64,000 bases of DNA, from NCBI GenBank assembly GCA_947174335.1, contig CAMWIM010000003.1, positions 1 to 64,000 of the forward strand, given 5' to 3'. A program made the position numbers and the translations under genes. This stretch comes from an uncultured Porphyromonadaceae bacterium (GTDB taxonomy: Bacteria > Bacteroidota > Bacteroidia > Bacteroidales > Muribaculaceae). The notes below the pieces were generated by a model that saw nothing but the letters and a program-made list of their open reading frames with translations, was not told the origin of the DNA and did no database searches. Of this stretch, positions 9,869 to 14,126 are shown piece by piece; the stretch's first letter is position 1; the number at the start of each line of letters is the position of its first letter.

Positions 9869-10780
9869 ATGGGTGTTTTGGCTACAGTTGGAATGTTTGA
9901 CGGCGTCCATGCCGGACACCGGTTTCTTCTCGACTTCATCAGTCAGGAAGCAGCCCGCCGTAACCTTTCAACCCAAGTCATCACCTTTACCAACCATCCT
10001 CTATCAATAGTTCGTCCCGAGGCCGCCCCTAAGCTATTGTCGTCCCCCGAACAAAAATTAGATCTCATTCTCAGCAATGGAATTGACGACATCATATTGC
10101 TCGATTTCACACCTGAACTCCAAAATCTTTCAGCACAACAATTTCTCAAATTACTTCGCGACAATTTTGACGTTACCCATTTGGCAATGGGCTTCAACAA
10201 CAGCTTTGGCAACGACCGCACTCTCAAATTTGAAGACTTCAAAAGAATCGGCAAAGAAACAGGTATTGAGATAATACAGACTCCCGAATATACCGATAAT
10301 AATAACAAAGTCAGCTCATCAGTCATCCGTCGCCTTATAAATGACGGAGATGTAGCGTCGGCTTCAAAACTTCTCGGGCGCAAATTTTCGCTGACAGGTA
10401 AAGTGGTACATGGTCGCAACGTTGGTCACACAATCGGCTTCCCAACCGCCAATATCTCACCATCGTTTGACTCCCAAATCATCCCCGCGAAAGGCGTATA
10501 TGCAGGCAAGATTAACATCGACGGAACCGACTATAAAACAATGGTCAACATCGGCGTTCGCCCGACCTTCGACTCATCCGACAAATCCCTTTCAATCGAA
10601 GCCTACATCGACAACTTTACCTGTAACCTCTACGACAAAACCCTCACAATCCAATTCATTAACCGACTCCGCGACGAAATGAAATTCGCCTCAATCGACC
10701 AACTCAAACACCAACTCACCACCGACCTCCAAAACCTTAGGCAAATCCCAATAAATTGCAAGATCGATTGTAATGACTGA
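9869..10780 (+). CDS. ribF: Bifunctional riboflavin kinase / FAD synthetase
   Basis: The 303-residue protein has an N-terminal FMN adenylyltransferase domain (GMFDGVHAGHRFLL, the nucleotidyltransferase HxGH signature) and a C-terminal flavokinase domain (GRNVGHTIGFPTANI, then the GVYAG and VNIGVRPTF motifs). It makes FMN from riboflavin and FAD from FMN in the cytosol. FAD is needed by the fumarate reductase encoded further along. The last eight bases overlap the RAYT start. The final residues (about INCKIDCND) look unrelated to the family, so the transposase insertion may have changed the end of ribF. Confidence 0.95.
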   Translation: MGVLATVGMFDGVHAGHRFLLDFISQEAARRNLSTQVITFTNHPLSIVRPEAAPKLLSSPEQKLDLILSNGIDDIILLDFTPELQNLSAQQFLKLLRDNFDVTHLAMGFNNSFGNDRTLKFEDFKRIGKETGIEIIQTPEYTDNNNKVSSSVIRRLINDGDVASASKLLGRKFSLTGKVVHGRNVGHTIGFPTANISPSFDSQIIPAKGVYAGKINIDGTDYKTMVNIGVRPTFDSSDKSLSIEAYIDNFTCNLYDKTLTIQFINRLRDEMKFASIDQLKHQLTTDLQNLRQIPINCKIDCND

Positions 10781-11402
10781 CCGACATCAATTCCGAGCCA
10801 AATGGCACGATTACAATAATGGTGTTTATTTCGTCACCATCTGTGCCCATGAAAAACGTCATACATTCGGGCGAATCGTTCATGCCCAATTCATTGCATC
10901 CGACCTGGGTAAAATAGTAGAAGATAACATAAAAAGTATTCCCCAACATTACCAAGACGTAGAAATATTGAATTATGTTGTCATGCCAAACCACATTCAT
11001 TTGGTTATATCAGTAGGGACGCGATTCTTCGCGTCCACAACAAACAACGAACCAACGCAACCCGTACGGACGCGATTCTTCGCATCCGATTCAAACAAAT
11101 CAAATATGGGATGTTTGAAACCGCCCCAACACGCCGATGCCGTAGCGGATTTTCATCATAATAGCAGACTGGCAACTATAATAGGAGCATTCAAGGCCGG
11201 TGTATCACGGATAGCGCGGACGCAATGTATTGATCGGACGCGAAGAATCGCGTCCCTACGACAACCGCACCAACAGCCACACCCGATTTGGCAATCACGA
11301 TTTTACGAAAACATCATCCGTAACCAGCAGTCATTCAACAATATCATGAATTATATTGATACCAACGTCCAAAATTGGGAAAATGACTGTTTCGCCAATT
11401 AA
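10773..11402 (+). CDS. REP-associated tyrosine transposase (RAYT, Y1/HUH family)
   Basis: The 209-residue protein has the RAYT layout: the N-terminal FRAKWHDYNNGVYFVTIC-like start, the HUH motif in MPNHIHLVI, and the catalytic tyrosine in FYENIIRNQQSFNNI. RAYTs are IS200/IS605-like single-strand nucleases that act on REP hairpins flanked by GTAG. Between the HUH motif and RLATIIGAFK, and again before IWQSRFYE, the protein has extra loops. These loops are encoded by three 20-bp hairpins of the REP type, two forward and one reverse, all in frame. The frame is open from start to stop, but whether the enzyme is active is unknown. It is attached to the end of the ribF operon. Confidence 0.9.
   Translation: MTDRHQFRAKWHDYNNGVYFVTICAHEKRHTFGRIVHAQFIASDLGKIVEDNIKSIPQHYQDVEILNYVVMPNHIHLVISVGTRFFASTTNNEPTQPVRTRFFASDSNKSNMGCLKPPQHADAVADFHHNSRLATIIGAFKAGVSRIARTQCIDRTRRIASLRQPHQQPHPIWQSRFYENIIRNQQSFNNIMNYIDTNVQNWENDCFAN
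11017..11036 (+). repeat. REP hairpin 1, inside the RAYT gene
   Basis: An 8-bp stem GGACGCGA/TCGCGTCC closes a TTCT loop and is directly preceded by GTAG (11013-11016), the tetranucleotide known from REP elements recognised by RAYT enzymes. It encodes GTRFFAS in frame. Confidence 0.85.
11068..11087 (+). repeat. REP hairpin 2, inside the RAYT gene
   Basis: This is the same hairpin as at 11017 with one stem mismatch (TCGCATCC). It is preceded by GTAC in place of GTAG and is again translated as RTRFFAS. Confidence 0.8.
11236..11255 (-). repeat. REP hairpin 3, reverse orientation, inside the RAYT gene
   Basis: The same 8-bp stem appears with loop AGAA, so it lies on the minus strand. The GTAG tag is at 11256-11259 on the minus strand (CTAC on plus). 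On plus it encodes RTRRIAS, so the frame tolerates the element in both directions. A half copy, GGACGCAATG, starts at 11218. Confidence 0.8.
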
Positions 11403-11438
11403 ACCCATACGGACGCAATACACCGCACTAACCCGTAC

Positions 11439-11458
11439 GGACGCGATTCTTCGCGTCC
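11439..11458 (+). repeat. REP hairpin 4, just downstream of the RAYT gene
   Basis: A perfect copy of the GGACGCGA hairpin preceded by GTAC. A half copy, GGACGCAATAC, precedes it at 11411. This brings the REPs in and next to the RAYT gene to four full copies. Confidence 0.85.
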
Positions 11459-11502
11459 CCAACAAACAACAAACTACAAAACGTTGGGTATCAATCAATT
11501 TT

Positions 11503-11535
11503 GAATTATGCATTCTGCATTATGAATTAATTGAA
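11503..11535. repeat. AT-rich mini-repeat, GAATTATGCAT type
   Basis: Short alternating units of ATTATGCAT and ATTATGAATT form an imperfect palindrome. Similar tracts occur at 14143-14190 and 41671-41706, each beside an accessory gene or a group of hairpins. Confidence 0.6.
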
Positions 11536-11543
11536 TTTTTTTG

Positions 11544-11551
11544 TAACTTTG
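11544..11551 (+). promoter_or_regulatory. -7 box upstream of the structured leader
   Basis: TAACTTTG is an exact -7 match following a run of T. A start near 11558 would place a leader of about 325 bases in front of the lipoprotein gene. No clear -33 box is seen at the right spacing. Confidence 0.55.
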
Positions 11552-11561
11552 CATATCATTT

Positions 11562-11850
11562 ACGCCTGCAGAGCTCGCTCTGGGCTTGAGGGCGGGATGG
11601 TTTAACATAAAAAACGTTTATCAGCGTTTCTGTTCTTGACGTCTTGAAATCTGGCAGTTTCGAACTTTCATCAAGGCAGCAGCAATGGTAGATGTTCATG
11701 GGTATGTATATATCCCGGAGTAGTCGCGCTGAGAAGCTCGGCTATCCGTGGTATATTTACATATATACGTGGGCTCTGCACATTGCTCTCCATATGAAAG
11801 TGGGCTTTGCCAGAGCCTCAAGACGTGGGGAGAGCAATGATAAGATACAT
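11562..11850 (+). promoter_or_regulatory. Candidate structured RNA leader of the BACON/LRR gene
   Basis: The leader is long and full of pairings. CAGAG/CTCTG closes a CTCG loop at 11569-11582. CTTGA at 11635 pairs with TCAAG at 11671 around an inner TTGAAA/TTTC-AA stem. GTATATAT at 11706 pairs with ATATATAC at 11761, with CGGA-TAG/CTA-TCCG inside. CATTGCTCTCC at 11781-11791 pairs perfectly with 11829-11839. GGCTCTG at 11772-11778 can pair with CAGAGCC at 11811-11817, which crosses the previous stem, so a pseudoknot or a switch between two folds is possible. I do not recognise a named RNA family. Confidence 0.5.
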
Positions 11851-11883
11851 CAGACATCGAAACAAACCAATCAAACCTTTATA

Positions 11884-13809
11884 ATGAAAAAATTTATTTA
11901 CTCTCTCCTACCCCTATTTATCGTTATTTTATCGGGGTGTAGTAAAAAAGACAAAGAACTTGATTTTATTAAAGTAACAAGCGGATTGACCTATACCGTT
12001 GAAGCTGCCGGCGGAACGGTTAATGTCAATGTCGAAACAAATACCGATTATTTTGTTTCAATCCCCGATGACGCCAAAGATTGGATTAGCGTGGTTGAAT
12101 CACGTGCATCACGTAATGAAACCATCTCGTTATCAGTAAGTGAAAACGGTATTGATGCTCGTTCTACTATTGTTTACATAAATAATAAAAATGGAGAGAA
12201 ATTAGCAAAAATCAAAATTGCGCAAAAAGGTGAAGATCCATGTTTTAATGTAAAAAATGGATCAACCGTTGAAGTCGAAAGCAAAGGTGGTACTATAGAT
12301 CTTAAATTTGAAACAAATCTTGAATACTCGGTCTCAATTCCCGAAGAAGCCAAAAGCTGGATTAGCGTGGTTGAATCACGTGCTATCCGCCAGGAAACTG
12401 TAACGTTGTCAATAAGTGAAAATGATGGCGAAGCTCGTACTGCCACCATACGATTTGTTGATAAAAATGAAAAAATCCTTACTTCAATACCGGTAAATCA
12501 AGCCGAAAGTCCCAATGCTATTCCCTCCGACATGACAAAAGCCTTTCCTGATGAAAAATTCCGTAACTATGTTTTGAGTAATTTTGACACAAATAATAAT
12601 GGTATAATTTCTGAAAAAGAAGCATTCGCAGTAACAAAGATTGAAATACAAGGAACAAAAGAAGAAATTGGTGAAGTAAAATCGCTTGAGGGAATTCAAT
12701 ATTTCCCAAATCTGAATTATTTGACTTGTTATTATAATAAAATAGCAAATATTGATATTTCAAATAATAAAGCCCTTGAATATTTGTCGTGTGCAGTAAA
12801 TCAGTTAACTACTTTAGATGTCACAAAGAATACATTATTAACCTATTTAAATTGTGGTGGTAACTCGTTGACTACATTGGAAGTCTCAAAAAATACAGTA
12901 TTGGAGTATTTGTTATGTTACAATAACGACATTACTACATTGGATATTTCAAAAAATATAGCGCTGACTTATTTGGATTGCGAACATAACCAATTGAGCA
13001 CGTTGAATGTCGCTGAGAATAGAGCCTTAGCAAGCTTGGAATGTCACCATAACCAGTTGACCACGCTAGATGTAACAAAAAATATCAAACTGAGTTATTT
13101 GGACTGTCGCTATAACCAGTTGACGGCATTGGATGTCTCAAAGAATACATACTTAGCAAGCTTGGAATGCCAACATAACCAGTTGACCACGTTGGAAATC
13201 TCAAAGAATACAGGTCTGACGTTGTTGGGTTGTAGCTATAATCATTTTACTACGTTAGACGTGTCTGGTTGTACATCTTTGAAGGAGTTGTATTGTGCTC
13301 CTAATAGCCAAATGATTGAAATAAATATCTCGGGGTGCACTTCGCTCAAAAGTTTTCAGTACAATGCTACTGTATTGACAACGTTAAAAGCCTCTGAATG
13401 TATAAATTTAGAGGAGTTGTTTTGCACTAATAATCAGTTGTCAATATTAGATATATCGGGTTGTATTGCGCTGCAAACGCTTTTTTGCCAGTATAATAGG
13501 TTGACCACATTAGATATTTCGGATTGTACTCAGTTGATTAGTCTGTGTTGTGATAATAACCAGTTGATCTCCTTGGATGTATCAAAGAATTCAGAACTTA
13601 CTTATTTACACTGCTATAAGAACCAGTTAACGACTTTAGATATATCAAACACAAATTTGGGAAATAGTCCCTTCTATCAACCTTTTATTTGTTATATGGA
13701 ATCTTTAAGAACTCTATATTTTAAAACAGGATGGAACATTGAAGGAATAAATAATCCCAGAGATGAAGAATATATCAATCCCAACACTGAGATAAAATAC
13801 GTTGATTAA
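11884..13809 (+). CDS. Surface lipoprotein with two BACON domains, an EF-hand-like loop and leucine-rich repeats
   Basis: The start is the ATG at 11884, which gives a lipoprotein signal peptide with lipobox ILSGC (Cys19); an in-frame ATG at 11692 would translate the leader and is rejected. The mature protein of about 620 residues has two BACON-like domains (about 24-115 and 116-207, each with WISVVESRA), then a module with DTNNNGIISEKEA resembling a calcium-binding loop. About sixteen 21-residue leucine-rich repeats follow, of the form LxCxxNxLTTLDVSKN. Such proteins are anchored in the outer membrane and may bind glycans, mucin or host proteins. The ligand is unknown. A strong terminator follows. 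Confidence 0.85.
   Translation: MKKFIYSLLPLFIVILSGCSKKDKELDFIKVTSGLTYTVEAAGGTVNVNVETNTDYFVSIPDDAKDWISVVESRASRNETISLSVSENGIDARSTIVYINNKNGEKLAKIKIAQKGEDPCFNVKNGSTVEVESKGGTIDLKFETNLEYSVSIPEEAKSWISVVESRAIRQETVTLSISENDGEARTATIRFVDKNEKILTSIPVNQAESPNAIPSDMTKAFPDEKFRNYVLSNFDTNNNGIISEKEAFAVTKIEIQGTKEEIGEVKSLEGIQYFPNLNYLTCYYNKIANIDISNNKALEYLSCAVNQLTTLDVTKNTLLTYLNCGGNSLTTLEVSKNTVLEYLLCYNNDITTLDISKNIALTYLDCEHNQLSTLNVAENRALASLECHHNQLTTLDVTKNIKLSYLDCRYNQLTALDVSKNTYLASLECQHNQLTTLEISKNTGLTLLGCSYNHFTTLDVSGCTSLKELYCAPNSQMIEINISGCTSLKSFQYNATVLTTLKASECINLEELFCTNNQLSILDISGCIALQTLFCQYNRLTTLDISDCTQLISLCCDNNQLISLDVSKNSELTYLHCYKNQLTTLDISNTNLGNSPFYQPFICYMESLRTLYFKTGWNIEGINNPRDEEYINPNTEIKYVD
12710..13660 (+). repeat. 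63-bp tandem repeats encoding leucine-rich repeats
   Basis: The 21-codon LRR unit recurs about sixteen times. Several neighbouring copies share long stretches of DNA (for example AACCAGTTGACCACG at several points between 13050 and 13190). Such similarity allows copy-number change by slippage or recombination. Confidence 0.75.
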
Positions 13810-13856
13810 TCAAAAAGGTAGTTTTATCCATTGTTGCGCATTACACAACACCGATA

Positions 13857-13890
13857 AAAAAGGGGGCTCACGAAAGTGGGCTCCCTTTTT
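13857..13890 (+). terminator. Terminator after the BACON/LRR gene
   Basis: A 15-bp stem (AAAAAGGGGGCTCAC with GTGGGCTCCCTTTTT, two G-T pairs) closes a GAAA loop and ends in five T. It should work in both directions. Confidence 0.85.
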
Positions 13891-13908
13891 AATCTCATAA
13901 TTTGTGGT

Positions 13909-13930
13909 GGACGCACGAGCCGTGCGTACC
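13909..13930. repeat. REP-like hairpin, GACGCACG type
   Basis: ACGCACG and CGTGCGT pair around an AGC loop. The stem resembles the perfect hairpin at 42404. This opens the gene-free spacer 13891-14342, which holds four hairpins, one AT-rich mini-repeat and the promoter of the next gene. Confidence 0.65.
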
Positions 13931-13965
13931 ATACATTCACGAGGTAACGCACGGTAAGTCAGTAG

Positions 13966-13986
13966 GGGCGCAAGGTCTTTGCGTCC
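13966..13986 (+). repeat. REP-like hairpin with GTAG tag
   Basis: GGGCGCAA and TTGCGTCC pair with one G-T pair, preceded by GTAG at 13962-13965. It is a diverged member of the family seen in the RAYT gene. Confidence 0.7.
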
Positions 13987-14062
13987 ACCGCAGAAAATAT
14001 AGTGTTCATCGTCGGTTTCACCGACTCCCTCGTGCTCCTGTTCTCCTGTCTAAAAAATACTT

Positions 14063-14106: not shown

Positions 14107-14126
14107 GGCTATACCGGGGTATAGCC
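14107..14126 (-). repeat. REP-like palindrome with GTAG tag
   Basis: GGCTATACC and GGTATAGCC form a perfect 9-bp inverted repeat with a 2-base centre. CCTAC follows on plus, so the element reads GTAGG plus hairpin on minus. Its stem differs from the other copies while the tag is kept. Confidence 0.65.

Follow-up and report, generated by a model that had tools for sequence, protein, structure and literature searches.

REPs in frame within a transposase gene, generally between HuH and Y, are a known feature of tnpA_REP subclass 2.4 (RAYT group 4), which is abundant in Bacteroidetes and Cyanobacteria, and the sections of the 2018 paper cited here describe such in-gene REPs as unique to this subclass (Quentin et al. 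2018, PMC6006769). The general observation has thus been in print since 2018. What is added is a quantitative account of the positions of the copies and of the way they change: within those same sections, a concerted in-gene pair, a density profile, generations of relics and the overwriting of G33-G46 are not described for subclass 2.4. Intragenic REPs and Rickettsia RPE palindromes are likewise palindromic repeats kept in frame inside genes, but they occur in unrelated genes, for example those for DNA repair (De Nocera et al. 2013, PMC3733652), whereas the host here is the cognate transposase gene.

The RAYT gene examined here lies in a 64-kb stretch of DNA (the window, meaning the whole stretch analysed). 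As in subclass 2.4, according to the cited sections of PMC6006769, a variable segment with in-frame REPs separates its HUH strand from alphaC. The subclass 2.4 REPs are characterized there by three consecutive G-C pairs at the stem base or by a double foot. The stem in the window begins G-C, G-C, A-T, and among the relatives L061 and L068, for example, have double-foot REPs. With the E. coli TnpA_REP (subclass 2.2 or group 2; PDB 4er8, a RAYT bound to a REP hairpin) the window RAYT shares the fold and the HUH and Tyr motifs, and the substrate of the E. coli enzyme is a GTAG-footed hairpin of the kind that the window RAYT carries in its own gene. However, E. coli K-12 contains about six hundred REPs (PMC8266576), and the genome of the window four.

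Results

The assignment of the gene as a RAYT, made earlier from the sequence, is borne out by a match to Pfam Y1_Tnp (E 1.6e-6, over the cut-off), by a profile match to E. coli TnpA_REP (E 5.7e-7) and by an AlphaFold2 model (mean pLDDT 81; slot A residues 99-120 below 50), whose best PDB match in Foldseek is 4er8. H74-I75-H76 and Y194 are invariant among 65 aligned relatives, and, as in Y1 HUH enzymes, HxH is combined with a single catalytic Tyr in a C-terminal helix, as predicted from the alignment and the model. REPs accompany the gene, one in its 3' flank with the variant GTAC foot and GTAG copies in the gene itself. Against NCBIfam REP_Tyr_transpos the ORF gives E 1.3e-17 and 64.1 bits, under the 80-bit cut-off. 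As none of the 149 genomes of the family reaches that cut-off, the model is ill-suited to these Bacteroidota RAYTs, and its cut-off is no biological defining feature. The window RAYT fits tnpA_REP subclass 2.4, with putative cleavage of cognate single-stranded REP DNA. The draft genome has three other, distant RAYT genes.

Table 1. Features of the RAYT locus, with positions in the window
Feature	Position	Strand	Remarks
ribF (flavokinase/FAD synthetase)	9869..10780	+	upstream of RAYT
RAYT / TnpA_REP gene	10773..11402	+	209 aa ORF; profile matches, relatives, AF2 model
Decayed REP, slot N	10878..10901	+	15/24 identical to REP; V36-HAQFIA-S43 codons; predicted strand 39-42
HUH codons (H74-I75-H76)	10992-11000	+	
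Forward REP A1, slot A	11013..11036	+	GTAG foot and hairpin 11017-11036; encodes VGTRFFAS
Forward REP A2, slot A	11064..11087	+	GTAC foot and hairpin 11068-11087; encodes VRTRFFAS
Truncated relic of reverse REP, slot B	11217..11235	-	older stem type (GGACGCAATGTATTG)
Reverse REP B, slot B	11236..11259	-	hairpin 11236-11255 and CTAC foot
Conserved Tyr codon (Y194)	11352-11354	+	
Decayed REP just past stop codon	11407..11427	+	same older stem type as slot B relic (GGACGCAATACA)
Forward REP in 3' flank	11435..11458	+	GTAC foot and hairpin 11439-11458; after stop

The stop codon of ribF overlaps the start of the RAYT gene (ATGACTGA). In the congener G107 ribF is 93% identical, and the RAYT and the downstream LRR/BACON gene are both missing at the site: its alignment to the window ends at 10728 and resumes near 13962, about 80 unaligned bases standing between the flanks in place of 10729-13961. 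Among clade members only G058 shares the ribF context, and the RAYT is therefore found in different contexts in different genomes.

The RAYT ORF contains three in-frame hairpins with the stem GGACGCGA, all of them between HUH and the catalytic Tyr, and a fourth follows shortly after the stop codon (Table 1); their positions, their frame and their identity as REP elements agree with the earlier note. The REP unit here consists of a 4-nt foot and a 20-nt hairpin, which makes 24 nt or 8 codons and is therefore frame-neutral. The hairpin of A1 begins 16 nt past the HUH codons (+16), and REP B is its exact reverse complement; both hairpins are perfect, and that of A2 has one stem mismatch. A GTAG tag had been claimed for two of the internal copies, which holds for the foot at 11013 and, in reverse (CTAC), for the copy ending at 11259; the other two copies have GTAC. 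By chance, 0.18 occurrences of the hairpin pattern would be expected in the window at up to 3 mismatches, and four or more matches arose in 0 of 100 shuffles. These shuffles, together with the near-zero density in codon-shuffled RAYTs given below, rule out chance hairpins. Near the RAYT gene there was no Rfam match to a known structured RNA, and the exact 24-mer REP had no match in viral contigs.

Our survey covered 115 de-duplicated relatives (101 full length), gathered by similarity to the window gene and hence enriched for its relatives, most of them from fragmented MAGs. With the criteria used (stem of at least 8, loop 2-5, GC at least 40%, GTAG-like foot), 54.4 kb of RAYT ORFs yields 66 footed hairpins, or 1.21 per kb. 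The ORFs next to the RAYTs have 5 in 212.7 kb, or 0.024 per kb, and RAYTs with shuffled codons 0.004 per kb. Within the ORF the HUH-to-WQ segment has 3.23 per kb and the remainder 0.12 per kb; outside the gene the flanks have 2.6-2.8 per kb within 150 bp, a density similar to that of the HUH-to-WQ segment, and 0.02-0.03 beyond 1 kb. Such a profile is what one would expect from REPs that land near the gene and are then filtered by the protein. At least one REP lies between HUH and WQ in 46 of 96 genes, a fraction that, given the choice of relatives by their similarity to the window gene, is no estimate for all RAYTs.

By hairpin start, all three reading phases are seen among the in-gene REPs, and outside the window's clade forward-reverse doublets occur inside slot A (L069, L073, L083, L085, L089, L091, L103, L112), which together point to repeated insertions. 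A single ancestral insertion for all RAYTs is ruled out by this variation in phase, offset and single or doublet arrangement; only for the window's clade is a shared insertion site plausible. Most members of this clade combine a forward copy upstream with a reverse copy in slot B, and in many the forward copy begins at +16 or +19 nt. At the 3' ends of L246, L257 and L261, REPs occupy the last codons and lengthen the C-terminal tail of the RAYT.

The earlier note had proposed a comparison with RAYTs lacking REPs to distinguish insertions from ancestral coding sequence. The median length from HUH to WQ is 71.5 aa in genes with REPs, against 60 aa in those that lack them (p = 1.8e-5), and slot A, the loop after the HUH strand, has medians of 53 and 44 aa. 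Slot B, which precedes the WQ strand, has a well-defined baseline length of 15 aa and, when it bears REPs, measures 17, 23 (+8, one REP) or 31 (+16, two REP lengths) aa or more, the window gene having 31. Among the clade's genes with REPs in slot B, half show a net gain of just 2 aa, so that native codons have been replaced. Most RAYTs have 12 aa in slot N, the G33-G46 hairpin; of the genes with an intact REP hairpin there, L252 has 19 aa, L245 17 and L253 still the usual 12, with an intact REP in this core segment. The comparison thus favours insertion in slots A and B, but not plain insertion in slot N of L253 and in that half of the slot B genes. The slot N lengths may reflect either a loss of native codons after insertion or direct overwriting. 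The native slot N of nearby genes has an F-x-P-S pattern, which may have helped to make the REP peptide acceptable there. In L164, L167, L251 and L049/L247, slots A or B have expanded through tandem repeats that keep the frame, such as EMPSHxRAQNIA, RTNDPAMQS and STSAQGNIA; some of these repeats contain residues derived from REPs.

Three degenerate relics that had escaped the earlier note lie in slot N, in slot B and just past the stop codon (Table 1), so that in the window gene decayed older copies persist next to fresh ones. Since nine 24-mers in the window, the REPs themselves included, reach at least 15/24 identity to the REP, the call of the slot N relic rests on sister genes: the same codons hold an intact REP in L253 and L252 and a partly decayed one in L249/L051/L245. 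The decayed copy would now encode a core beta strand (predicted strand 39-42).

How the copies change was followed in 18 genes of the window's clade that have a forward and a reverse in-gene copy, two of them with slot N as the forward one. The two copies of one gene differ at 0.33 of 20 positions, and copies from different genes at 3.63; the pairs are exact inverted copies in 12 of the 18, several with asymmetric loops. Permutation gives a p of about 1e-5 for the whole hairpin as well as for loops and stems taken separately, a value at the floor of 100,000 permutations that ignores phylogeny. Such a contrast is predicted by concerted evolution, not by simple descent. The stem type broadly tracks the RAYT core tree, as with GGGCGCAA in L245 and L250. 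Turnover is also evident against the near relative L045/G058, which is near-identical to the window gene save for slot A and the 3' flank; there REP units have been gained, lost and reshuffled with the frame retained, and the A2 stretch is rearranged. In L051, the slot A REP (2245-2309) is one base short, coinciding with a RAYT frameshift that is either a broken gene or an assembly error.

Copies without a foot have outdated stems or decay next to fresh REPs, as do slot N and the slot B relic of the window gene. The foot-less slot N copy of L245 keeps the old stem, and its slots A and B have the new one; L162 and L164 have relics at +16 beside a fresh REP. Homogenisation apparently needs the foot, a reading based on few genes.

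The genome-wide hairpin count suggested by the earlier note was made by pattern search. Allowing up to 2 mismatches, the window hairpin occurs nowhere in the draft genome (2.4 Mb, 102 contigs, 93% complete) beyond its four sites at the locus, which rules out a dispersed REP family in this genome at that threshold. The in-gene pair is inverted but encloses alphaC codons and has no copies elsewhere in the genome within 2 mismatches, and it thus differs from a REPIN, in which an inverted REP doublet is dispersed as a unit in many copies. In seven genomes (G000, G058, G071, G177, G181, G218, G389) the exact in-gene stem was likewise not found away from the RAYT locus, by an exact-copy search that diverged or unassembled copies could escape. 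Dispersal may be dead in these seven genomes, or the gene may be newly arrived.

Discussion

Fresh, older and decayed REPs at homologous sites form a layered record of landing, rewriting and joint change of enzyme and hairpin. We consider it reasonably probable that the REPs arise by repeated local deposition, for which the RAYT is probably responsible, that the tolerance of the protein filters them and that footed copies are homogenised, an account that requires no regulatory role. REPs would be copied again and again into DNA near the RAYT gene, and those inside the ORF would survive only where the protein accepts the peptide, namely in slot A, slot B and occasionally slot N. The surviving footed copies would be kept alike as stem and loop drift or switch type, and copies without a foot would drop out of the rewriting and then decay. 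On the strength of the known activity of E. coli TnpA_REP and the apparent foot dependence, we infer that the RAYT itself copies the REPs, by single-strand cleavage at the GTAG foot; their local bias would then reflect action in cis. The in-gene copies are, however, not randomly placed, and the recurrence in most of the clade of a forward copy with a reverse copy in slot B could mean that the pair is selected. The suggestion that the hairpins mark recent activity survives only in part, as in-gene REPs sit at homologous sites across deeply diverged genes and decayed generations lie beside fresh ones.

More tentatively, enzyme and substrate may form a self-contained cassette within one reading frame, in which the RAYT rewrites its footed in-gene copies in concert as its hairpin specificity shifts and REP codons can take over core positions, as the sister genes suggest for strand 39-42 of the window RAYT.

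It is rather unlikely that the in-gene inverted pair is a selected autoregulatory element, with the RAYT binding its own gene or mRNA, or with forward-reverse pairing limiting translation. Most clade genes retain one or more in-ORF REPs, the missing slot A copy of L252 and L253 is matched by an intact one in slot N, so that forward and reverse copies persist together, and in G389 and G177 the in-gene pair accounts for the only two pattern matches in the genome. A 26-bp stem between forward and reverse copies is also predicted in the folded mRNA (z = -7.4), but any inverted pair would automatically pair in this way. Moreover, in-gene REPs are absent from about half of the RAYTs surveyed, the clade members L155, L256, L258 and L259 have none in their ORF, and the in-gene copies equal the flanks in density, turn over and decay.

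Somewhat less probable still is homogenisation by template switching or gene conversion between the inverted repeats (quasi-palindrome correction), with the protein idle after the first insertion. Pairs are identical even in genomes where no exact cognate copies were found elsewhere, and the tandem repeats grown in slots of L164, L167 and L251 show slippage. However, in G006, G195, G313 and G298 dispersed cognate copies have the stem and loop of the in-gene pair, which indicates a wider process, and the foot-less slot N copy of L245 has stayed uncorrected in the same gene. That the protein needs the REP-encoded peptide (T-R-x-x-A-S) is very improbable: forward and reverse copies in the clade both read as TRxxAS-like peptides, but other RAYTs read their REPs in other phases as unrelated peptides, the peptide switches with stem type (AQYIAP in L046) and many RAYTs do without it, which rules it out as a required motif.

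The locus also has a practical side: exact cognate copies are seemingly confined to one gene in some genomes, so that a test at a single locus, not at hundreds of dispersed repeats, is possible. REP-like hairpins of other families (GGACGCACGAGCC..., GTAGGGGCGCAAGGTC..., GGCTATACC...CTAC), non-cognate to this RAYT, lie at 13909-13990 and 14107-14126 of the window.
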